DNA of 64,000 nt from Sphingopyxis terrae subsp. terrae NBRC 15098 (GTDB lineage Bacteria > Pseudomonadota > Alphaproteobacteria > Sphingomonadales > Sphingomonadaceae): NCBI RefSeq assembly GCF_001598815.1, contig NZ_BCZQ01000019.1, positions 1-64,000 of the forward strand. Direction: 5' to 3'. The notes under the pieces were generated by a model, which saw only the letters and a list, made by a program, of their open reading frames with translations, made no database searches and was not told where the DNA came from. The position numbers and the translations under genes were made by a program. This document shows, piece by piece, positions 53,939-63,981 of the stretch. Numbering within the stretch: the first letter of the stretch is position 1; each line of letters begins with the position of its first letter.

Positions 53939-55504
53939 CTAGCCCACAGCGCGGTCGCGGCCTTCCCAATAAGGCGCGCGCAGTTCGCGGCGCAGCACCT
54001 TGCCCGACGGGTTGCGCGGCAGCGCGTCGATCGTCTCGACGCTCTTCGGCGCCTTGTAGGCAGCGATGCGCTCGCGCGCCCATGCGATGACATCGGCGGG
54101 CTCGACCGTGGCGCCGGGCGCGGGGACGATCAGCGCCTTGACCGCCTCGCCCCATTTGTCGTCGGGCACGCCGATGACCGCGACATCGGCGACACCGGGG
54201 CAGCCCATGATCGCGCTTTCAACCTCGGCCGGATAGACATTCTCGCCGCCCGACACGATCATGTCCTTGATCCGGTCGTGGACGAAGTAAAAGCCGTCGG
54301 CGTCGCGATAGCCGACGTCGCCGGTGTGCAGCCAGCCGCCGATCACGGTTTCGGCGGTCGCCTCGGCGCGGTTCCAATATTCCTTCATCACAATGTCGCC
54401 GCGGATCGCGATCTCGCCGATCTCACCGTCGCCGAGCGGCCGCCCCTCGCCATCGAGGATCGCCATCTCGGTCTGCGGCCAGGGCTGACCGCACGAGGTA
54501 AGTTTGCCGGGCAGGTCGTGCGCGGCGGGCGAGAGGTAGGAGCCGCCGCCCGAGCTTTCGGTCATGCCATAGAATTGCACGAAATCGCAGCCGAAGGTCG
54601 TGCGCGCGCGGCGCAGCACATCCTCCGCGATCGGCGAGGCGCCATAGGCGATCGACCGCAACGCCGAATAGTCGCCTGTCGCTGCGGCGGGCTGTTGCAG
54701 CATCATCTGGATCATCGCGGGCGCGAGGAAGGCGTGCGCAACGCGTTCCTCGGTCAGCATCCGCACCGCATCGTCCGCGGCGAAATCCTTGACCAGCACC
54801 AGCCGCCCGCCCTGCGCCAGCCCCGAAAAGCTGACATTGGTCCCGGCAACATGGAACAGCGGCATCACGATCATCACCGTTTCGTCCTCGCTATAGGCGA
54901 AGCCGTCGACCTCGGTCGCCATTTCGAGGAAGCGGCGGTAATTCTTGTTGGCGAGCACCACACCCTTTGGCCGCCCGGTGGTGCCGCTCGTGTAAAGTTG
55001 CAGCACATCGTCGGCGAGTTGCGGCGCGTCGGCGGGCGGGGTCGCGGCCGCATCGTCGAGCCAGGCGTCGAAGCCTTCAAAGTCCGGGTGCGCGCCATAA
55101 AGCGCCACCAACCGCGGCTTGTCGGCGAGCCCGGCGACGGCAGCCAGCGCGGTGTCGAAGAAATCCTCGCCCACGAAGAGCAGCGTCGGGGCGGCGTCGC
55201 CCAAAATGAAACCAATCTCGCCCGCGGCGAGGCGGCAGTTGATCGGCGCGAGGCAGGCGCGCGCACGCGCGGTACCGAAGAAGAGCGGATACCAGGCGTC
55301 GTGGTTCTTGGTCAGAACCGAAACCCTGTCGCCGGGCGCGACCCCCGACGCCAGCAGCGCGTTCGCGACCCGGTTCGACTGCGCATCAAGCTCGGCAAAG
55401 CTCGTTTCGCGATCTCCATATTTGACCGCGACCGCCTGCCCACGCGCGCGCGCCTGCGCCGCCGGAATATCGGCCAGCGTCCGAATGGCCTCCAGATCGA
55501 TCAT
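53939..55504 (-). CDS. AMP-forming acyl-CoA ligase
   Basis: The 521-residue ANL-superfamily ligase has the P-loop YTSGTTGRPKGVVLANK, FYGMTESSGGGSY, the hinge DVGYRDADGFYFVHDRIKD and the C-terminal Lys in PSGKVLRRE. It would activate an aromatic or alkyl carboxylate. It is monocistronic and leftward, divergent from the MetE-like gene with a CTTAG-type element in the 85-bp spacer. It differs from the ligases at 33779 and 61980, which resemble each other more. Confidence 0.87.
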   Translation of the reverse strand: MIDLEAIRTLADIPAAQARARGQAVAVKYGDRETSFAELDAQSNRVANALLASGVAPGDRVSVLTKNHDAWYPLFFGTARARACLAPINCRLAAGEIGFILGDAAPTLLFVGEDFFDTALAAVAGLADKPRLVALYGAHPDFEGFDAWLDDAAATPPADAPQLADDVLQLYTSGTTGRPKGVVLANKNYRRFLEMATEVDGFAYSEDETVMIVMPLFHVAGTNVSFSGLAQGGRLVLVKDFAADDAVRMLTEERVAHAFLAPAMIQMMLQQPAAATGDYSALRSIAYGASPIAEDVLRRARTTFGCDFVQFYGMTESSGGGSYLSPAAHDLPGKLTSCGQPWPQTEMAILDGEGRPLGDGEIGEIAIRGDIVMKEYWNRAEATAETVIGGWLHTGDVGYRDADGFYFVHDRIKDMIVSGGENVYPAEVESAIMGCPGVADVAVIGVPDDKWGEAVKALIVPAPGATVEPADVIAWARERIAAYKAPKSVETIDALPRNPSGKVLRRELRAPYWEGRDRAVG

Positions 55505-55552: not shown

Positions 55553-55589
55553 CAAATACTTGGCCAGCAAAAAAGCGAGAGGATCCGCC

Positions 55590-56642
55590 TTGTTCGATCA
55601 CCCCATCCTGCCGACAACGATCGTCGGAAGCTACCCCCAACCCGATTGGCTGATCGACCGCGAACGATTGAAGGCCAGCCTGCCGCCGCGCGTGCGTGCC
55701 GAGACTTTGTGGCGCATCCCCGAACCCTGGCTGGCGGATGCGCAGGAAGCCGCGACCTTGATGGCAATCCGCGATCAGGAAGAGCTGGGCATCGACATCG
55801 TCGGCGATGGCGAAATGCGCCGCGAAAGCTATTCGAACCGGCTCGCGACCGCGCTGTCGGGGATCGACACCGAACAGCATGGCACCGCGATCGACCGCAC
55901 CGGCAACGCCAATCCGGTGCCGCTCGTCTCGGGCCCGATCCGCCGCGTGGCGCCGATCGAGGCGCAGGACGCCGCCTTTCTCCGTCGCCATTCGTCGAGG
56001 CCGGTCAAGCTAACCCTGCCCGGCCCCTTCACCATGACCCAACAGGCCGAGAACGCCTATTATCCCGACCTCAGATCGCTCGCGATGGATTATGCCGATG
56101 CGGTCAATGCCGAGGTGAAGGATCTGTTCGCCGCCGGCGTCGATGTCGTCCAGCTCGACGAACCCTATCTGCAGGCGCGCGCTGCCGAGGCGAACGCCTA
56201 TGCGATCGAGGCGATCAACCGCGCGCTCGACGGCGTCGGCGGCACGACCGCGCTGCATATCTGCTTCGGCTATGCGATGGTGCACCACAGCGCGGGGGCG
56301 ACGGGGCCGAAGCCGAAGGCCTATGACTTCCTCGCCGAACTCGAAGCGTCGGCGATCGACGTGATTTCGATCGAGGCGGCGCAGCCGGGGCTCGACCCCG
56401 CGATCCTCGCCGAACTGCCAACCAAGACGATCATGTACGGGGTGCTCGATCTATCGATCCCCGAGGTCGAAACCCCCGAAATCGTCGCGGGCCGCATCCG
56501 CGAGGCGCTGCGCTATGTCGACGCCGAACGGCTGTGGATCGCGCCTGATTGCGGGATGAAATATCACAGCCGCGACCATAGCCAGGCGAAGCTGAAGGCG
56601 ATGGTCGACGGGGCGGCGCTGGTACGGGCGGAGCTGAAGTAA
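55590..56642 (+). CDS. Cobalamin-independent methionine synthase C-terminal domain-like methyltransferase
   Basis: The 350-residue protein starts at TTG 55590 with GAGAGG seven bases upstream (MFDHPILPTTIVGSYPQPDW). It has the TIM-barrel of MetE's catalytic domain: GDGEMRRESY, VVQLDEPYLQ, zinc ligands His-x-Cys in ALHICFGYA, Glu in SIEAAQPGLD and Cys in IAPDCGMKY. The MetE N-terminal domain is absent, as in MetE-like paralogues that use other methyl or alkyl donors or lyse CoM-type thioethers. It is surrounded by catabolic genes, not methionine genes, so a thiol- or methyl-transfer step in degradation is possible. Confidence 0.8.
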   Translation: MFDHPILPTTIVGSYPQPDWLIDRERLKASLPPRVRAETLWRIPEPWLADAQEAATLMAIRDQEELGIDIVGDGEMRRESYSNRLATALSGIDTEQHGTAIDRTGNANPVPLVSGPIRRVAPIEAQDAAFLRRHSSRPVKLTLPGPFTMTQQAENAYYPDLRSLAMDYADAVNAEVKDLFAAGVDVVQLDEPYLQARAAEANAYAIEAINRALDGVGGTTALHICFGYAMVHHSAGATGPKPKAYDFLAELEASAIDVISIEAAQPGLDPAILAELPTKTIMYGVLDLSIPEVETPEIVAGRIREALRYVDAERLWIAPDCGMKYHSRDHSQAKLKAMVDGAALVRAELK

Positions 56643-56645
56643 TAT

Positions 56646-56726
56646 TGTCATCCCCGCGAAAGCGGGGACCCAGGGGGCTAGCTCAGTTGACGCACGCTCT
56701 GGGTCCCCGCTTTCGCGGGGATGACA
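56646..56726. repeat. 28-bp inverted repeats around a 25-bp spacer (GTCATCCCCGCG family)
   Basis: The left arm 56646-56673 starts TGTCATCCCCGCGAAAGC and the right arm 56699-56726 is its perfect reverse complement, ending GCGGGGATGACA. The spacer is GGGGCTAGCTCAGTTGACGC followed by ACGCT. It belongs to a common interspersed hairpin repeat of sphingomonads and separates convergent genes, so it may terminate both. Confidence 0.8.
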
Positions 56727-56731
56727 GGAAA

Positions 56732-57424
56732 TTATTGGTCGATGAAATCCGCCAACAACGGCACCACCAACTCCGGTGCCTCGACCATCGGCAGATGCCC
56801 TGCCCCCGCGATGACCTCGAGCTTCGCGCCCGGAATCGCGTCCAATATCTCGTCATGGTGCGCGCGGCTCGTGATGCCGTCCTTATCACCCCAGATCAGC
56901 AAGGTCGGCACCGCAATCTCGCCGAGGAGTGGGCGGCTGTCGATGCGCGCCATGATCGCGCGCTGCTGGGCGAGGAAGGTGTCGGCGCCGGTGTCTGCCG
57001 CCATCTTTCGCGCAATGCCGAGCAGGCGCGCGTCGCCGCGCTTTTCTTCGGGAAACAGGATCGGGATGCGCTCCTCGACCACCTGATCGAACTGCCCATT
57101 CTCGACGAGATCGATATAGCCCTGCCGCCGCGCCGTCTGCGCGGGGCCGTCGGCCGAGGCGAGCGTCGAGATCAGCGCCAGCTTCGCAACCCGCTCGGGC
57201 GCCCGGCGCATCACCTCGAAGGCGACGAAGCCGCCCATGGCGTGTGCGACCAGCGCGAATTTCGGGGGGCTATTGTCGAGCAGCCGCTGCGCGAAGCCCG
57301 CGATCGTATCGTCGCTGCGGTTGTCGGCGACAATCACCTCGCGGTCGGTCCAGGCATCAAGGAGTGGCTGCCACACGGCATCGGTCAACAGCTGGCCGGT
57401 GATGAGGACGATCGGAAGAGTCAT
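56732..57424 (-). CDS. Alpha/beta-hydrolase-fold protein lacking the nucleophilic serine
   Basis: The 230-residue protein has the alpha/beta-hydrolase layout with VLITGQLLTDAVW, a nucleophile elbow, Asp in IWGDKDGIT and His in IAGAGHLPMVEAPE. The elbow reads VAHAMGGFVAFE: Ala62 stands where the Gly-x-Ser-x-Gly serine should be (GCC at 57239-57241). Such substitution occurs in non-hydrolytic members and cofactor-free dioxygenases. It is flanked by repeats on both sides, so probably a single-gene unit. Confidence 0.8.
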   Translation of the reverse strand: MTLPIVLITGQLLTDAVWQPLLDAWTDREVIVADNRSDDTIAGFAQRLLDNSPPKFALVAHAMGGFVAFEVMRRAPERVAKLALISTLASADGPAQTARRQGYIDLVENGQFDQVVEERIPILFPEEKRGDARLLGIARKMAADTGADTFLAQQRAIMARIDSRPLLGEIAVPTLLIWGDKDGITSRAHHDEILDAIPGAKLEVIAGAGHLPMVEAPELVVPLLADFIDQ

Positions 57425-57443: not shown

Positions 57444-57528
57444 CGTCATTGCGAGGAGCCGAAGGCGACGCGGCAATCCAGAGCAGGCGTAAACCGCGCT
57501 GGATTGCTTCGCTTCGCTCGCAATGACG
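57444..57528. repeat. CGTCATTGCGAG inverted repeat
   Basis: CGTCATTGCGAG (57444-57455) and CTCGCAATGACG (57517-57528) are perfect 12-bp inverted ends. Inside, GGCAATCCAG and CTGGATTGC also pair. It is a second hairpin-repeat family; a decayed copy lies at 49781. It fills the gap between two leftward genes. Confidence 0.75.
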
Positions 57529-57535
57529 AAATATT

Positions 57536-58456
57536 TCATACCACCTGATGCAGCAGCGCTTCGCCCGCCCCCAGCCGGCGGCAATTCTCATGCGCCACCG
57601 TCAGGCTGCGCACGAGCGTCTCGGGGGTCAGCCAAGCGATATGCGGCGCGAGCACCGCATTGGGCAGGCCGAGCAGCGGATTCCCGCGCGGCAACGGCTC
57701 CTCCGCAAACACGTCGAGCCCCGCGCCGCGCAGATGGCCCGCGGTCAGGGCCGCGACCAGCCGCGCCTCATCGACCAGTTCGCCGCGCGCGGTGTTCACG
57801 AGTACCGCACCCTGCTTCATCGCGAACGGGTCGATGCTGGCGCGCGTCTCTTCGGTGAGCGGCATGTGCAGCGAGACGATATCGCTCTCCGCGAGCAACT
57901 GGCCAAGCTGCAGAAATTCATAAGGCCCGTCGCGCTCGCTCCGCGCCGTATAGACGACCCGCGCCCCCAGCGCGGCGAGCACGGGCGCGAGCAGCTGCGC
58001 CGAATTGCCGAACCCGACAAGCCCCACAGTGCGCCCGCCGACCTCCCCCACCGAATCGAGTTCGGACGGATCGGCGGTCCATCCTTCTCCCGCGCGCGTT
58101 CGCGCATCGAAGAAACAGGTGCGGCGCAGCACCGCCATCATCAGCGACAGCGCCATTTCGGCGACTGCCTGGCTGTTGGTGCCGGGCATGTTGCACACCG
58201 CGACGCCATGCTCGCGCGCCGCGTCGAGCGCAATCGTGTTGACCCCGACGCCGAGCTTCTGGATCAGCTTGAGCCTGGGCGCCGAGGCGATGAAGTCGGC
58301 CGTAACTGGCGTCAGAACGTGGAGCAGCACGGTGATTTCGCCGGCCACCGCGTCGAGCGGTGCGGCTTCGTCGACATGGGTAACAACGCCCGCGCCGAAG
58401 ACGGCATCGACCGCCGCGCGGAAGCCGGGGCTTGGGCGGGCGTGGAGAACGATCAT
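57536..58456 (-). CDS. NAD-dependent D-2-hydroxyacid dehydrogenase
   Basis: The 306-residue protein has the two-domain fold of D-isomer hydroxyacid dehydrogenases: TVGLVGFGNSAQLLAPVLAALG (cofactor), the catalytic Arg in NTARGELVDEA, the Glu around DVFAEEPLP and the His in APHIAWLTPE. It reduces a 2-oxoacid or oxidises a 2-hydroxyacid. The ATG at 58456 overlaps the enolase-like stop as ATGA, so it is coupled to that gene. It is the last gene of a four-gene leftward operon. Confidence 0.85.
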   Translation of the reverse strand: MIVLHARPSPGFRAAVDAVFGAGVVTHVDEAAPLDAVAGEITVLLHVLTPVTADFIASAPRLKLIQKLGVGVNTIALDAAREHGVAVCNMPGTNSQAVAEMALSLMMAVLRRTCFFDARTRAGEGWTADPSELDSVGEVGGRTVGLVGFGNSAQLLAPVLAALGARVVYTARSERDGPYEFLQLGQLLAESDIVSLHMPLTEETRASIDPFAMKQGAVLVNTARGELVDEARLVAALTAGHLRGAGLDVFAEEPLPRGNPLLGLPNAVLAPHIAWLTPETLVRSLTVAHENCRRLGAGEALLHQVV

Positions 58457-59751
58457 GCCGCGACCCGTCCGATCGACCCGGCAAAGGCCGAAAAGCCGGC
58501 AAATTCGGCATCGGCGCCCATCGCTTCCTCGATCCGCAGCATCTCGTTCCACTTCGCCATCCGTTCGGAGCGGGTAAAGCTGCCGACCTTCAATTGCCCC
58601 GCGTCCCAGCCGGTGGCGAGATGCGCGATCGTGACATCCTCGCTCTCGCCCGAGCGTGCCGAGACGATCGCGCCCCAGCCGCGCGCGACCGCGGCATCGA
58701 GCGCGGCCTTGGCTTCGGTGACGGTGCCGACCTGGTTCACCTTGATCAGCGCCGCATTGCACACCGCTGCATCGCCCGCGCGCTCGACGCGCGCCGCATT
58801 GGTGACGAGCACATCGTCGCCGATGATTTGCACCCGGTCGCCGATCGCGGCGGTCACGGCCGCCATCGCGGTCCAGTCATCCTGCCCCGCCGGGTCTTCG
58901 ATGGACAGGATCGGATAGCGCCCCGCCCATTCGATAATGCGCGCCGCCATCGCCTCGCTCGTCAACTGCCCCTCGTCGAGCGCGAGGCTGTAGCCCGAAG
59001 CATCGCCGAGCTCGTTCGCCGCAATGTCGAGCGAGATGAACACGTCTTCGCCGGCGCGGTGCCCGCTCGCCTCGATCGCCTTGGTCAGCGTATCGAGCGC
59101 ATCCTCGTTCGAGGCGAAATTCGGCCACCAGCCGCCTTCGTCGGCGACCCCCGACAGCGGCCCCTTGGCTTCCATCAGCCTACCCGCGGTGCGATACACA
59201 TCGTCGGTGATTTCGAGCGCGCGGCGAAAGCTGCCCGCCGCGGGGCACATGATCATGAAATCCTGCACGTCGGTGCGCCGCCCGGCGTGGGCGCCGCCGC
59301 CGAAAATCTGGATCTCGGGCAGTGGTATTCGCACTTTGCGTTCCCCGGCGAGGTAGCGCCACAGCGGCAGCCGCGCATCGGCGGCGGCCGCGTGAAGCAC
59401 CGCCATCGACACCGCAACGACGGCGTTCGCGCCCAGCCGCGCCTTGTTCGGGGTGCCGTCCAGAGCGCACAGCGCCTTGTCGACCGCCGCCTGATCGCCC
59501 GCATCCATGCCGATCAGCGCGGGCGCGATCTCGGCCCCGATCCCGGCAACCGCGCCATTGACGCCATAGCCGCCGAAGGCCGGGCCGCCGTCGCGCAGGT
59601 CGATCGCCTCATGCGCGCCGCGCGAGGCCCCGGCTGGCGCGATGGCGCGACCAACCGCGCCCGATTCGAGGGTAACTTCGGCCTCGACCGTGGGGCGGCC
59701 ACGCGAATCCCAAAGCTGGCGCCCGGTAACCGAAGCGATAGGCGACGTCAT
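58453..59751 (-). CDS. Enolase-like protein with His-to-Ala change at the active site
   Basis: The 432-residue protein aligns throughout with enolase: GRPTVEAEV, PAGASRGAHEA, GAHA (His155), ADEGGW (Glu205), LIKVNQVGT (Lys337), GQLKVGS (Lys388) and the metal ligands near IEDP and GDD. The loop where enolase has Ser-His-Arg-Ser reads SARSGESED; Ala365 replaces the proton-relay His (E. coli His370). N-terminal loops also deviate. A glycolytic role is doubtful. ATGA overlaps join it to the kinase before it and the dehydrogenase after it, so it likely works on a phosphorylated intermediate in this operon. Confidence 0.85.
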   Translation of the reverse strand: MTSPIASVTGRQLWDSRGRPTVEAEVTLESGAVGRAIAPAGASRGAHEAIDLRDGGPAFGGYGVNGAVAGIGAEIAPALIGMDAGDQAAVDKALCALDGTPNKARLGANAVVAVSMAVLHAAAADARLPLWRYLAGERKVRIPLPEIQIFGGGAHAGRRTDVQDFMIMCPAAGSFRRALEITDDVYRTAGRLMEAKGPLSGVADEGGWWPNFASNEDALDTLTKAIEASGHRAGEDVFISLDIAANELGDASGYSLALDEGQLTSEAMAARIIEWAGRYPILSIEDPAGQDDWTAMAAVTAAIGDRVQIIGDDVLVTNAARVERAGDAAVCNAALIKVNQVGTVTEAKAALDAAVARGWGAIVSARSGESEDVTIAHLATGWDAGQLKVGSFTRSERMAKWNEMLRIEEAMGADAEFAGFSAFAGSIGRVAA

Positions 59752-60728
59752 TCCTTGGTCCTTTTCCAGTTTGCGACGAGCGCATCGATGGGCGTCGGCG
59801 CGAGCAGCAACGCGCGCGCCTGATCACGCACGATTTGTTTGTGATGGGGGTCGGTCAGATAGGGCGCCGGGGATTTGCCCTCGACCCGCGCGAGCAGCAA
59901 CGCCGCGGTCAGTTTGCCGGCGCGCAGCGCCAGCGCGTCGGCGTCTTCCCAATCGATGCCGGCGCGATAGGCCTCGACCAGTGCCGCCGCGGCCTCGCCG
60001 AGCCGTTCGTTCCCCAGCCACACCGCCTTCAGCAGCAGATGCGTGGTGCAAAAGGCTAGGTCGAACGCCGGGTCGCCATAGACTGCACATTCGGCGTCGA
60101 GGAAAACCGGCCCGTCTGCACCGACGAGAATATTCTTGGGGCTGACGTCGCCGTGAACAAGCGCCACCTTGCGCGACGAGAGGTCGTCGGCGAGCGCGTA
60201 GAGCGCCGACGCAAGCTCGGCATCCTTTTGCGCAACGAACAGCAGAAAGGGATCGACGCGCAGCGCGCGGAACATCGCATCGGTCGGAAAGGCGTCGCGG
60301 TCGGCAGTGCTGTTCGCGGTCGCGGCGTGGACCGCCACGATGCCGCGACCGACAGCCGCCGCGAACGCCGGATCGACACGGCCCGCGATCAATTCATCCT
60401 TCCACACCGGACAATCCGGCAGGAAGCGCATCGCGAAGCCGTGGCCGGGCAATTCGGCCAGCACCTCGGGCACCAGATGCGGATCGACACCGCGCGCCCG
60501 GCGCAGCCAGCGCACTTCGCTCGCGCCGCGCTCAACCGGCGCGTGCCATTCGGCGGCGACACGCAATTGCTCGAGCGGCCGCTTGACCACGATCGGCCCC
60601 GCCGGGCCGTCGACCCGCCACACGTCGCAGGACACGCCGCCGGTCAATGGCTCGAGGACGACCTCCCCCTCGCCCGTCAGCCCGGCCGCGCGCAGTCCTG
60701 CAATGATATCGGCGGTCGCCGTGTCCAC
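59748..60728 (-). CDS. APH-fold small-molecule kinase
   Basis: The 326-residue kinase has the aminoglycoside-phosphotransferase/choline-kinase fold. The catalytic motif is HGD at 192-194 with Asn199 (VHGDVSPKNILV), and the metal-binding Asp211-x-Glu213 is in FLDAECAVYGDPAFDLA. A nucleotide-binding Lys is in PIVVKRP near residue 49. It starts at GTG 60728. Being coupled to an enolase-like protein, it probably phosphorylates a hydroxyl group of a catabolite rather than an antibiotic. Target unknown. Confidence 0.82.
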   Translation of the reverse strand: MDTATADIIAGLRAAGLTGEGEVVLEPLTGGVSCDVWRVDGPAGPIVVKRPLEQLRVAAEWHAPVERGASEVRWLRRARGVDPHLVPEVLAELPGHGFAMRFLPDCPVWKDELIAGRVDPAFAAAVGRGIVAVHAATANSTADRDAFPTDAMFRALRVDPFLLFVAQKDAELASALYALADDLSSRKVALVHGDVSPKNILVGADGPVFLDAECAVYGDPAFDLAFCTTHLLLKAVWLGNERLGEAAAALVEAYRAGIDWEDADALALRAGKLTAALLLARVEGKSPAPYLTDPHHKQIVRDQARALLLAPTPIDALVANWKRTKE

Positions 60729-61856
60729 TTACAGCTTCTCCCGGATCCAGCCGCTGACCAGATCGGCGGCATTTTGCCGTTCTTCGATCGAATCCTCGAA
60801 ATAATGCGCGCCGGGGATCAGTTCGAGCCTTTTGTCCGCGGTGCCGAGGAAGTCGAAAATCTTGCGCGCATCGCTGGGGAAAACGCCGGTGTCGGCGAGC
60901 CCCTGCACCACCAGCGCGGGGGTGTCGTGCTTGGCGAGGTGCGGCTGCCCCTGGCACGGCGATGTTTCGAGGCTCCACATGTTGAGCCAGGTCTTGATCG
61001 TATTGGCGCGGCCGATGCTGGGGGTGCGGTTGGCGATTGCCGGGTCGCCGCGATAGCACCAGTTGGGCTTGCGGTCCGACGGGTCGATCGCCGGATCGAC
61101 GCAGCGAATATCGCCCCAGCAGCGGAACATCGGAAAGATGCGGTCGGGGATTCCCGCCGCGTTTAGCCGCGCGAGTTCGGCCTTTGCCCAGTCGGTGATG
61201 CGCTGGTTGCGCGCGCGCTGGCCGGCGCGATATTTTTCGATGAAGGCGTCCGAATAGGGCGGGCCATTGTCGGGATTGAACGGGTCGAGCTCGGGATCGG
61301 TCAGCGTCGGATCATTCTCGTCGATCACCGACGCGTCCATCCAGTCGGTCAGCACTTCGGGACGTCCCTGGTGGGCGTTGAAGCTGATATAGAGATCGCC
61401 CTTGATGAGCTGCGCCAGCGCATCCTGGCCGATCGACGGCAGCCGGTCGGTCAAGGTCGGCGCGATTGCTTCCGCCTGATAGGCGCCCATCAGCGAGCCG
61501 CCGCCCGAATTGCCGAGGATCACAATCTGTTCGACCCCGGCCTCTTCTTTCAGCCACTTCATCCCGACCCCGATGTCGAGGATGGCATGTTCGAGCAGGA
61601 ACTGGTCCTCGAACCCGCGATAGCGCGTATTCCAGCCGAGAAAGCCGAAACCGGCGCGGGCAAAATAGGGCGCGATATAATGTTCGGAAAAATCGACATT
61701 ATAATGGGTGGCGATGATCGCGACCTTGGGCCGCTTGCCCGCCTCGGTCCAATAGATGCCCTGACAGGGATGGCCGCCCGCCTGAATCCGCGGCGCGGTC
61801 GGCGACGTGCGGCCGATGAATTGTGCGTCCAGTCCTGCAATCCCGTTCGGGTCCAT
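60729..61856 (-). CDS. Alpha/beta-hydrolase (esterase/lyase-like)
   Basis: The 375-residue hydrolase has the nucleophile elbow ILGNSGGGSLMGA (Ser about residue 117), an Asp in GLADTGVFPSD and a His in PGAHYFEDS. A long insertion with ADPAIDPSDRKPNWCYRGDP-like sequence (about 260-290) and several Cys separates the halves. It precedes the kinase by zero bases and is the first gene of the operon. A hairpin repeat lies just upstream. It may open a lactone or ester to the acid that the kinase then phosphorylates. Confidence 0.8.
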   Translation of the reverse strand: MDPNGIAGLDAQFIGRTSPTAPRIQAGGHPCQGIYWTEAGKRPKVAIIATHYNVDFSEHYIAPYFARAGFGFLGWNTRYRGFEDQFLLEHAILDIGVGMKWLKEEAGVEQIVILGNSGGGSLMGAYQAEAIAPTLTDRLPSIGQDALAQLIKGDLYISFNAHQGRPEVLTDWMDASVIDENDPTLTDPELDPFNPDNGPPYSDAFIEKYRAGQRARNQRITDWAKAELARLNAAGIPDRIFPMFRCWGDIRCVDPAIDPSDRKPNWCYRGDPAIANRTPSIGRANTIKTWLNMWSLETSPCQGQPHLAKHDTPALVVQGLADTGVFPSDARKIFDFLGTADKRLELIPGAHYFEDSIEERQNAADLVSGWIREKL

Positions 61857-61888
61857 CAGTCTCTCTCCTGCCTGTTATATCTCATAAT

Positions 61889-61964
61889 CGTCATCCCGGA
61901 CTTGATCCGGGATCCATTTAACCAGCGTCGCGAGAATGGATCCCGGATCAAGTCCGGGATGACG
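61889..61964. repeat. 29-bp inverted repeats around an 18-bp spacer
   Basis: The left arm 61889-61917 begins CGTCATCCCGGACTTG and the right arm 61936-61964 is its perfect reverse complement, ending GTCCGGGATGACG. It is a third member of the CGTCATCCC repeat group. It lies between the hydrolase start and the end of the CoA ligase, both leftward, and may attenuate read-through. Confidence 0.8.
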
Positions 61965-61979
61965 AGCGTGGGAAACATA

Positions 61980-63638
61980 TTAACGGCTCACCTCGAAGGG
62001 CAGTTCATACCCCTCCAGCCCGGCGCGGATCGCCTTCTTGTCGATCTTGCCCGTCGGGCCGAGCGGGATGGCGTCGACGAACACTATATCGTCGGGCATC
62101 CACCATTTGGCGATCTTGCCATCCAGATAGCTGCGAATATCGTCGGCGCGCGCCTGCGCGCCCGGCTTGAGCTCGCAGAGCAGGATCGGCCGTTCGTCCC
62201 ATTTGGGATGCGCGATGCCGACGACCGCGGCGATGGCAACCGCGGGATGGCCGGTCGCGATATTCTCTATCTCGATCGAACTGATCCACTCACCGCCCGA
62301 TTTGACCACATCCTTCGCGCGGTCGGTAATCTGCATATAGCCTTCGCCGTCGATCGTGCTGACATCGCCGGTATCGAAAAAGCCCTCATCGTCGAGCACA
62401 TCGCCGCCTTCCCCGCCGAAATAGCCGCGCGCGATCGTCGGCCCCTTGATCATCAGCCGCCCCGGCGTCTTGCCATCGTGCGGCAGGCGGTGGCCGGCAT
62501 CATCGACCAGCTTCATCTCCAGCCCGCACAGCAACCGCCCCTGCTTGAGCTTGTACGCCATCTGCGCGTCGTCCCCCTTCGCCGCGACCGAGGCATTGGG
62601 GACCGACACGGTGCCGAGCGGCGACGTTTCGGTCATCCCCCACCCCTGGATGACATCGACGCCATAATCGTCGCGGAAGGTGCGGATCAGCGATTCGGGG
62701 CACGCCGACCCGCCGATCGTGACGCGTTCCAGCGTCGTGAAGCGCTTGCCATTTTCCTGCATATATTGGAGCAGCATCTGCCACACCGTCGGCACCGCGG
62801 CCGAATAGGTCACGCCCTCCTCCTCGATCAGATTATAGATGGATTCGCCGTCCATCCGCTGTCCGGGCAGCACCAGCTTCGCACCGACCGCGGGCGCCGA
62901 ATAGACGACGCCCCACGCATTGGCATGATACATCGGCACGACGAGCAGCACCGTGTCGCGCGCCGACAAGGCCAGCGCATCGCGCTGCAGCGTCATCAGC
63001 ATGTGGATATAGTTGGAGCGATGCGAATAGAGCACGCCCTTGGGATTGCCCGTCGTCCCGCTGGTGTAGCACAGGCCGCAGGCGCTGTTTTCGTCGAACC
63101 CGCCCCAGTCATGGTCGGCGGGATAGCCCGCGATCCAGTCGTCGAACGCCAGCGCGGGATAGTGTGTTTGCGGCAGCGCAGCGCGATCGCAGAAAAAGAT
63201 CACCTGCTCGATCGACGGCACCTGCGCAAGCAATTCGCCGACCAGATCGGCCACCGCCGGATCGGCGATCAGCAACCGGTCGGCGGCATGATTGGCGATA
63301 TAGGCGATCTGCTCCATGAACAGCCGTGGATTGAGCGTGTGAAGCACCGCCCCGATCCCCGCCGCGCCATACCAGGCGGCGAGGTGCCGCGCGCCATTCC
63401 ACCCCATCGTCGCAACGCGGTCGCCCGGCTTGATCCCGGCGGCCACCAGCGCGTTCGATACCCGCTTCGCATCGGCGTGGATTGCGGCATAGGTCGATCG
63501 GGTGACGCGTCCTTCGGCGTCGCGCGACACGACTTCGCGCGCGCCGTGCCAGGCCGCCGCATGGTCGAAAATGCGGTCGACCGTCAGCGGGACATTCTGC
63601 ATCAATCCGTCCATCGGCGGCGTCTCTTCCTCGCTCAT
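61980..63638 (-). CDS. AMP-forming acyl-CoA ligase
   Basis: The 552-residue ligase shows YTSGTTGNPKGVLYSH, VPMYHANAWGVVYSAPAVG, GWGMTETSPLGT, the hinge DVSTIDGEGYMQITDRAKD and the catalytic Lys in PTGKIDKKA. It is close in design to the ligase at 33779. The ATG at 63638 lies next to an A+T-rich promoter with a CTTAG-type palindrome. It is 123 bp from the hydrolase-kinase-enolase operon, which it could feed with, or receive from, an activated acid. Confidence 0.87.
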   Translation of the reverse strand: MSEEETPPMDGLMQNVPLTVDRIFDHAAAWHGAREVVSRDAEGRVTRSTYAAIHADAKRVSNALVAAGIKPGDRVATMGWNGARHLAAWYGAAGIGAVLHTLNPRLFMEQIAYIANHAADRLLIADPAVADLVGELLAQVPSIEQVIFFCDRAALPQTHYPALAFDDWIAGYPADHDWGGFDENSACGLCYTSGTTGNPKGVLYSHRSNYIHMLMTLQRDALALSARDTVLLVVPMYHANAWGVVYSAPAVGAKLVLPGQRMDGESIYNLIEEEGVTYSAAVPTVWQMLLQYMQENGKRFTTLERVTIGGSACPESLIRTFRDDYGVDVIQGWGMTETSPLGTVSVPNASVAAKGDDAQMAYKLKQGRLLCGLEMKLVDDAGHRLPHDGKTPGRLMIKGPTIARGYFGGEGGDVLDDEGFFDTGDVSTIDGEGYMQITDRAKDVVKSGGEWISSIEIENIATGHPAVAIAAVVGIAHPKWDERPILLCELKPGAQARADDIRSYLDGKIAKWWMPDDIVFVDAIPLGPTGKIDKKAIRAGLEGYELPFEVSR

Positions 63639-63647
63639 CCCAAAAAC

Positions 63648-63667
63648 ATAGTATACTAAGTATTTTG
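63648..63667. promoter_or_regulatory. CTTAG-type palindrome upstream of the acyl-CoA ligase
   Basis: CATAGTATACTAAG (63647-63660) matches 13 of 14 positions of the consensus CTTAGTATACTAAG and continues TATTTTG. It lies 9 bp upstream of the ATG of the leftward ligase, so a bound regulator would block transcription or initiation. Confidence 0.55.
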
Positions 63668-63711
63668 TCTTTACACGCTCAACCCCGCCTTGCCTAGCCC
63701 CCGCGCTTCTT

Positions 63712-63981
63712 CTAGGGTCAGGACCCATTAATTCCGCGTTCGAGGTTTGAAGCGATTTTGCTCAGGGCGAGGAGAAAAGGCGAAGGAATATGTCGATATT
63801 TCGAGACTTTTCGACGACGCCATGGGCAAAATCGGTCAAATCCCGCAGGGACGCCGAAATGGCTTCGATCTCAGGCCCGCGCGGCCTTGCGAGTAGCGAT
63901 GCTACCCGCTGCACCCGCCCGAACCCGATATCTTCGCCATTTCGACGCCTCGATCGTGGAATTAATGGGTCCTGACCCTAG
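63712..63981. mobile_element. 270-bp MITE-like element with 24-bp perfect terminal inverted repeats
   Basis: The left end 63712-63735 begins CTAGGGTCAGGACCC and the right end 63958-63981, ending GGGTCCTGACCCTAG, is its exact reverse complement. The ends share TA or CTAG with the flanks, consistent with Tc1/IS630-type insertion at TA. No transposase is inside; a 61-codon open frame at 63790-63975 (MSIFRDFSTTPWAKSVK) overlaps the right end and has no recognisable domain. The element probably moves with a transposase encoded elsewhere. From 63639 to 63711 there is only promoter sequence. Confidence 0.75.

Follow-up and report, generated by a model that had tools for sequence, protein, structure and literature searches.

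Why should a bacterium that possesses an ordinary enolase keep a second, altered one in an operon with a small-molecule kinase? The question is raised by four genes in a 64,000-nucleotide stretch of DNA from Sphingopyxis terrae subsp. terrae NBRC 15098 (contig NZ_BCZQ01000019.1, positions 1 to 64,000; hereafter the window). Read along the minus strand from 61856 to 57536, these encode, contiguously, an alpha/beta-hydrolase, an APH-fold kinase, an enolase-like protein and a 2-hydroxyacid dehydrogenase (Table 1). The original prediction, made from the letters of the window, held that the four are joined by overlaps or zero spacing, and so they are: the hydrolase stop codon TAA is followed at once by the GTG of the kinase (0 nucleotides), and the kinase/enolase-like and enolase-like/dehydrogenase junctions are overlaps of 4 nucleotides each (ATGA). 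Our answer is that the kinase and the enolase-like enzyme may well form a two-step module that phosphorylates and then dehydrates a 2,3-dihydroxy acid, a reading to which we give a probability of about 0.55.

The enolase-like protein has the fold and the full-length profile of an enolase. Its Pfam scores are 162.3 bits for Enolase_N and 284.5 bits for Enolase_C; with 474.6 bits it exceeds the cut-off of 300 set for the NCBIfam enolase equivalog TIGR01060, shares about 45% identity with enolase (EC 4.2.1.11), and gives an AlphaFold model (pLDDT 85.6) whose best match in the PDB is 7cll, an enolase with bound 2-phosphoglycerate (TM 0.93); structure models served for fold comparison only. K337, K388, E205, D242, E285, D312, H155, S43, R366 and S367 are all in place. 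Both Lys residues and the metal sites are thus kept, as the original prediction had it, and the relay His of the VSHRSGE motif (yeast His373) is indeed replaced, by Ala365. A second substitution had gone unmentioned there: the catalytic Glu of the QEF motif (yeast Glu168) is Asp164. These yeast numbers are ones that we presume from motif equivalence, the alignment being ungapped around both sites; likewise, we take the metal ligands of yeast enolase to be Asp246, Glu295 and Asp320, and its catalytic residues to include Lys345, Lys396 and Glu211.

The two substitutions define a family. In an alignment of 159 distinct enolase proteins from the retrieved loci (139 variant, 20 ordinary) Ala and Asp occupy the two sites in every one of the 139 family members, and His and Glu in all 20 ordinary enolases. 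Metal ligands, the equivalents of Lys345, Lys396 and Glu211 (here the acid Glu205), and the carboxylate and phosphate sites (His155, Arg366, Ser367, Ser43) are retained in 97 of 97 variants. Altogether 19 positions are family-specific: Asp164, Ala365 and 17 others, among them Trp209 near the acid Glu205 (Ala to Trp in 136/139), Gln148 and Gly151 in the loop of His155, and residue 389. An unrooted tree of 70 sequences places 61 variants and nine ordinary enolases on opposite sides of a single 100/100 branch, the branch of the Persicobacter protein being long. The closest named relatives of the window's protein, among the best 80 of 182 candidate loci, come from Sphingopyxis species at identities of up to 95%.

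What the changes may mean for catalysis can be judged from enolases already studied. A table in PMC4922564 lists E168, E211, K345 and K396 as catalytic residues of yeast enolase 7ENL; passages of PMC10619443 describe the mutation to alanine of Ser42, Asp241, Glu163, Glu204 and Lys335 in another bacterial enolase, and assign removal of the C3 hydroxyl to a glutamate. Because of these published residues and the census above, we read the variant as an enzyme in which base and acid Glu, the two metal sites and the binding sites for carboxylate and phosphate are predicted to be retained, and the surroundings of the leaving hydroxyl to be altered. A degenerate or regulatory enolase is unlikely, the remaining catalytic residues being constrained in 97/97. 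The same pattern – base Lys and both metal sites kept, leaving-group pocket altered – might also suit an enzyme that epimerises or tautomerises a 2-phospho acid with no loss of water; we think this very improbable, for Glu205 persists in all 97 and Asp164 is still a carboxylate.

The variant stands beside another enolase in its own cell. The check named with the original prediction, a separate true enolase in the genome, came out positive (G000:C28:6191-7456, L001; genome of 4.08 Mb on 62 contigs). Among 296 Sphingomonadales genomes 18 carry the variant, and all 18 have a further enolase match, which in G113 (62% complete) is a fragment of 155 residues, short of the diagnostic positions. A recheck of 13 genomes with more than one enolase match found the ordinary QEF in the second copies of G122, G150, G167, G223 and G231, and ordinary second full-length matches in G213 and G248 (both without the kinase); the remainder were fragments or weak matches. 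Given a second match in 18/18, replacement of the glycolytic enolase by the variant is unlikely. At E <= 1e-130, a threshold too strict for the most divergent members (G223, for example), and with the window's own genome counted, the variant occurs in 33 of the 385 genomes sampled from the window's class and in 9 of 398 of a second sample; all of the 33 except G997 were retrieved. Residues were read in the retrieved loci, and the remaining genomes were called variant-free by score and identity. Public plasmid records label the variant as ordinary enolase.

Two further enolase arrangements were encountered. At L185 (G267:C4:106754-120403), from the same genus, there are three enolase matches: one is ordinary, one is of the type found in the window (89%), and the third (59%) is another variant, with its own kinase, FAH hydrolase and SDR and, upstream, a PhoD-like phosphatase and an MFS transporter. 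On a plasmid of Cupriavidus pinatubonensis (L220; NZ_CP080769.1 482390-485631) an enolase of ordinary type, His and Glu kept, has phosphoenolpyruvate (PEP) carboxylase on one side and a 3-oxo-tetronate kinase on the other; here enolase may serve catabolism in a second way.

The partner of the variant is an APH-family kinase. Its match to PF01636 is well above the cut-off of 23.2 bits, and the catalytic Lys, HGDxSPKN and DAE are intact in 74/74 kinases, in keeping with the Lys, HGDxxxxN and DxE of that family. The model (pLDDT 93.9) lies nearest to 5-methylthioribose kinase (best matches TM 0.78-0.83, 17-18% identity), with which and with other APH-fold kinases it shares the catalytic Lys, HGD..N and DxE; it nevertheless falls far under the equivalog TIGR01767 of that enzyme (45.9 bits against 275).

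That kinase and variant belong together is clear from their distribution. Linkage was counted over 73 loci, made non-redundant at 90% enolase identity and flanked on either side by 3 kb or more. A kinase gene stands no further than 12 kb from the variant in 68 of them, and in 59 the two share a strand and are at most 300 bp apart. For each of the five loci that lack a linked kinase (L059, L066, L082, L158, L163) a match to it turned up in another part of the genome, at identities of 50, 60 and 52% in the genomes of L059, L066 and L082, and 51 and 45% in G740 and G938 (L158, L163). In the wider set of 81 loci (the window, 6 of the 46 loci L003-L048, and all of L049-L082 and L149-L188, near-copies included) the same 4-nucleotide kinase-enolase overlap is seen in 43; because it recurs in this way, and because both substitutions are found in 139/139 family proteins, we do not regard the operon pattern as chance. 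Among Sphingomonadales the kinase (E <= 1e-40) is present in 19 of 296 genomes: all 18 with the variant, and G262, that is, 1 of the 278 without it (Fisher p 6.8e-28, kinship uncorrected). The pair is also found in a second phylum, once, on the plasmid of Persicobacter JZB09 (Bacteroidota), where the genes overlap by 11 nucleotides and both Ala and Asp are present. This plasmid sequence (H39) was among seven lower plasmid matches taken as ordinary-enolase controls and proved to be a family member; the plasmid sample otherwise comprises 11 of the first 19 matches (H2, H3, H4, H7, H10, H11, H14-H17 and H19, the first four without annotation).

Co-occurrence of kinase and enolase, which a neighbourhood search was to check, is therefore borne out across orders. 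A single conserved four-gene operon is rejected: the constant core is the kinase-enolase pair, the dehydrogenase being linked to the variant in 45/73 loci and the large hydrolase forming one cluster in 22/81. The gene finder behind the 81-locus clusters misses genes; it overlooked the kinase of L156, which later comparison showed to be adjacent.

At which step, then, does the dehydrogenase act? It carries both Pfam domains of its family, with the catalytic Arg, Glu and His in 49/49, 49/49 and 48/49 proteins, and its best PDB match, 2cuk, is a glycerate dehydrogenase/glyoxylate reductase. Dehydrogenases of this family are D-specific, and an Arg after the second strand is a sign of NADP use; its presence in 40/49 sequences hints at NADP as the cofactor. 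The original prediction named kinase, enolase-type elimination and dehydrogenase as a possible new route to a phosphoenol or 2-oxoacid; taken in that order, the dehydrogenase would come last and reduce the 2-oxo acid formed after loss of phosphate. The first part of this route fits the retained residues. Its last step agrees with the gene order of the window (kinase, enolase, dehydrogenase), which is repeated in many related loci, but in six genomes where kinase and enolase lie apart the dehydrogenase adjoins the kinase in four (L202, L204, L207, L208; none was recognised beside the kinase in L203 and L206), and it precedes the kinase in L067, L168 and L212. Because of its place beside the kinase in the four split genomes, and of its nearest solved relative, the dehydrogenase more likely acts upstream of the kinase than after the enolase; a dehydrogenase-last order we consider decidedly unlikely.

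The company kept by the pair falls into four settings. In sphingomonads and Phenylobacterium it is the dehydrogenase, hydrolases, acyl-CoA ligases and a MetE-type protein. In Paraburkholderia, Cupriavidus, Rhizobium and Microvirga it is the dehydrogenase, a cupin (not called in the Microvirga locus), an HpaD-like dioxygenase, CMD, Zn-alcohol dehydrogenase and FAH hydrolase, joined in the Rhizobium-type clusters by a branched-chain-type ABC transporter and a LacI regulator. Roseibium, Paracoccus and the second copy of Sphingopyxis G267 have kinase, enolase, FAH hydrolase and SDR, the first two also LacI and sugar transporters. Persicobacter has aldehyde dehydrogenase, PfkB-like and class II aldolase genes, the aldolase being below its model cut-off (216 against 343 bits). 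Two labels there, a sugar isomerase and a PfkB kinase, are our assumption: the presumed isomerase drew a blank against Pfam at 1e-6 and against the PDB at 0.01, and neither had an NCBIfam match at 1e-60. The neighbours in Paraburkholderia and Rhizobium (HpaD-like dioxygenase, CMD, FAH) suggested an aromatic ring-cleavage substrate, with which the Persicobacter neighbourhood does not fit.

A common trait of these settings is that the candidate feeders – dehydrogenase, FAH hydrolase (linked in 18/73 loci), a ketopantoate-reductase relative whose gene overlaps that of the kinase in L153, and the aldehyde dehydrogenase of Persicobacter – can all yield a 2,3-dihydroxy acid, whether a 2-oxo-3-hydroxy acid is reduced, a diketo acid hydrolysed or a hydroxyaldehyde oxidised. 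The one FAH hydrolase tested, that of L154, has 2,4-diketo-3-deoxyrhamnonate hydrolase (8gsr) as its nearest solved relative. The FAH hydrolase and SDR downstream of the pair in L152, L154, L185, L210 and L211 resemble the diketo-hydrolase pathway of 2,4-diketo-3-deoxy-L-rhamnonate; the L154 hydrolase, however, is under the curated cut-off (362 against 500 bits), and the kinase-enolase pair is not known to belong to that pathway. The idea that in hydrolase-SDR operons the pair is an ATP-driven substitute for a missing aldonate dehydratase is weakened: six genomes or records were searched for IlvD/EDD and mandelate-racemase-type genes, and two (G361, G629) have a dehydratase-family gene within 10 kb of the variant, the other four having none within that distance. 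Nor was a sulfite-handling gene, as a sulfite leaving group (phosphosulfolactate) would call for, recognised among the scanned neighbours, the search going no further. In Roseibium some 5.7 kb separate the enolase from a sulfatase-like gene.

In the scheme that we favour – phosphorylation, then dehydration, of a 2,3-dihydroxy acid – we infer every reaction, starting from genes, residue pattern, pairing and ordinary enolase that are observed directly. The hydrolase of this window would probably free the acid or its precursor from an ester, and the dehydrogenase would probably turn a 2-oxo-3-hydroxy acid into the dihydroxy acid. ATP-dependent phosphorylation of the 2-hydroxyl by the kinase would follow. 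From its product the enolase-like enzyme would eliminate the 3-hydroxyl together with the alpha proton, and so form PEP or a homologous enol phosphate, which in some species PEP carboxylase could use. Elimination to a phosphoenol acid fits since the residues for carboxylate, phosphate, metals and proton removal, together with the acid Glu, are kept.

There is a precedent, in kinase-lyase pairs that work on hydroxy compounds, for a different chemistry. The kinase would activate the 3-hydroxyl or a more distant group by placing phosphate on it, and this phosphate would be the leaving group in the reaction of the enolase-like enzyme, whose product would be an unsaturated acid. It is precisely the surroundings of the leaving group that have changed, and the kinase fold resembles those of other small-molecule kinases, 25-hydroxysteroid kinase among them, lower in the match list. 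But the binders of a C2 phosphate (His155, Arg366, Ser367 and Ser43, with its metal) are kept in 97/97, and two carboxylates still in the leaving-group pocket disfavour phosphate there; we hold this chemistry to be improbable.

The identity of the kinase product is a related issue. It is unlikely to be D-2-phosphoglycerate: the cell's ordinary enolase could handle that compound, and the kinase should then often be met without the variant, yet just one of the 278 Sphingomonadales genomes that lack the variant has it. Most likely is a C3-substituted 2-phosphoglycerate, favoured because the leaving-group pocket is altered and the dehydrogenase family D-specific; the L enantiomer is less likely. 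A three-carbon acid is favoured by the PEP carboxylase and glycerate-yielding feeders nearby. PEP carboxylase adjoins dehydrogenase and kinase in four annotated Rhizobium plasmids – in one its end is followed after 92 bp, on the same strand, by the dehydrogenase-kinase pair, an order repeated in the three others – and shares an extended cluster with them in L150, L204, L208/L082, L226 and L227; its motifs we take to be intact.

These carboxylase genes lend weight to a simpler account, a plain glycerate-to-PEP module of hydroxypyruvate reductase, APH-type glycerate 2-kinase and enolase isozyme, whose product some species would pass on to PEP carboxylase. These four activities, in this order, form a segment of the serine cycle, and the enzyme types and the position of PEP carboxylase in the Rhizobium plasmids agree with it, as do the resemblance of the dehydrogenase to glycerate dehydrogenase and the passing of the enolase equivalog model. 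On the other hand, all 139 family proteins depart from ordinary enolase at two active-site positions, of which one is listed as catalytic; a glycerate kinase would have no need of an enolase of its own where the genome already has one, which sits ill with the near absence of the kinase from Sphingomonadales genomes without the variant; and the kinase has an APH fold. It matched none of the glycerate kinase classes I-III, its only Pfam matches at E 0.001 being APH and, just below cut-off, fructosamine kinase; the classes treated in passages of PMC2063504 (class I, class II or MOFRL, and phosphoribulokinase/uridine-kinase-like) belong to other families. We therefore think a plain glycerate module unlikely.

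Several observations weigh against phosphorylative dehydration of a C3-substituted acid. Neither dehydrogenase nor FAH hydrolase is linked in 21/73 loci, and the dehydrogenases of the Paraburkholderia loci, only 32-38% identical to that of the window, may be independent recruits. A kinase ortholog (66%) occurs at L201 (G262:C45:118508-119482) in a genome where no variant enolase was found; it is possibly a remnant. The test of kinase without variant covered one order, the Sphingomonadales. Loss of Glu168 could mean a different reaction. The presence of PEP carboxylase and of feeders that make glycerate would agree with plain PEP as the end of the route, to the detriment of the C3-substituted reading; and the D-specificity of the dehydrogenase family weakens that of L-2-phosphoglycerate. 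Around the L201 kinase only a member of a MarR-type regulator cluster and one other cluster gene were recognised.

The remaining features of the locus are collected in Table 1. For the dehydrogenase the 306-residue protein from ATG was adopted, a mechanically listed open reading frame of 408 residues being a longer version from a GTG start.

Table 1. Genes of the kinase-enolase operon and its nearest neighbours in the window
Feature	Position	Strand	Basis
Enolase-like protein, 432 aa	58453..59751	-	PF00113/PF03952, TIGR01060, residue census, AlphaFold model
APH-fold small-molecule kinase, 326 aa, GTG start	59748..60728	-	PF01636 70.4 bits, catalytic residues, model, co-occurrence
D-2-hydroxyacid dehydrogenase, 306 aa, ATG start	57536..58456	-	PF00389/PF02826; best PDB match 2cuk
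Large alpha/beta-hydrolase, 375 aa, lineage-specific	60729..61856	-	Sub-threshold Hydrolase_4 22.9 bits (cut-off 27)
Acyl-CoA ligase, lineage-specific neighbour	61980..63728	-	PF00501; NF004674 849.7 bits
Second alpha/beta-hydrolase, 230 aa, lineage-specific neighbour	56732..57424	-	PF00561; one cluster in 30/81 loci
MetE C-terminal-type protein (catalytic domain of cobalamin-independent methionine synthase), divergent neighbour, start provisional	55581..56642	+	PF01717 137.8 bits; one cluster in 20/81 loci
Second acyl-CoA ligase, neighbour	53939..55504	-	PF00501; NF004837 524.5 bits, above cut-off

The large hydrolase has weak PDB matches, to monoacylglycerol lipases (best E 0.0053); its possible role is to cleave an ester and so set the acid free. 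The MetE-type protein recurs near the variant even where no kinase is linked (L059, L066). Further out, between 43454 and 53917, lie genes for DUF3237, a TonB-dependent receptor, SnoaL-like, two GSTs, an MFS transporter, SDR, CMD, SMP-30/gluconolactonase and VOC proteins; this stretch may point to a lactone- or ester-containing natural substrate, and the receptor, GSTs, MFS, SDR, CMD and SMP-30/gluconolactonase have the look of a catabolic island. Three intergenic palindromes (56646-56726, 57473-57507 and 61888-61965), which we take to be REP-like in appearance, have arms of 28 and 31 nucleotides at 100% complementarity in two cases and of 12 nucleotides at 92% in one.

In one library of open-access papers (subscription journals fell mostly outside the search) no description was found of the kinase-enolase pair or of its pathway. 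The folds are already known; the residue pattern, the pairing with a kinase and the implied reaction are undescribed as far as that library shows. A broader claim, that phosphorylative dehydration of small 2,3-dihydroxy acids is widespread in Alpha- and Betaproteobacteria and on at least one Bacteroidota plasmid, and that it is carried out by a new class of APH-fold hydroxyacid 2-kinase and by the first enolase-family enzyme specialised beyond D-2-phosphoglycerate, filed until now as a second phosphopyruvate hydratase, we rate a little short of an even chance.

Enolase is among the most conserved of enzymes, and a variant subfamily of it implies that one reaction is probably mislabelled: two active-site positions are changed in every member read, the variant occurs in 33/385 genomes sampled from its class, and plasmid records call it ordinary enolase. 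The kinase provides a direct handle, for the compound that it phosphorylates gives the substrate of the enolase. The variant is, moreover, a natural experiment on the roles of Glu168 and His373 in enolase, and the module would add a branch to the bacterial breakdown of hydroxy acids from sugars, and possibly from aromatic compounds.

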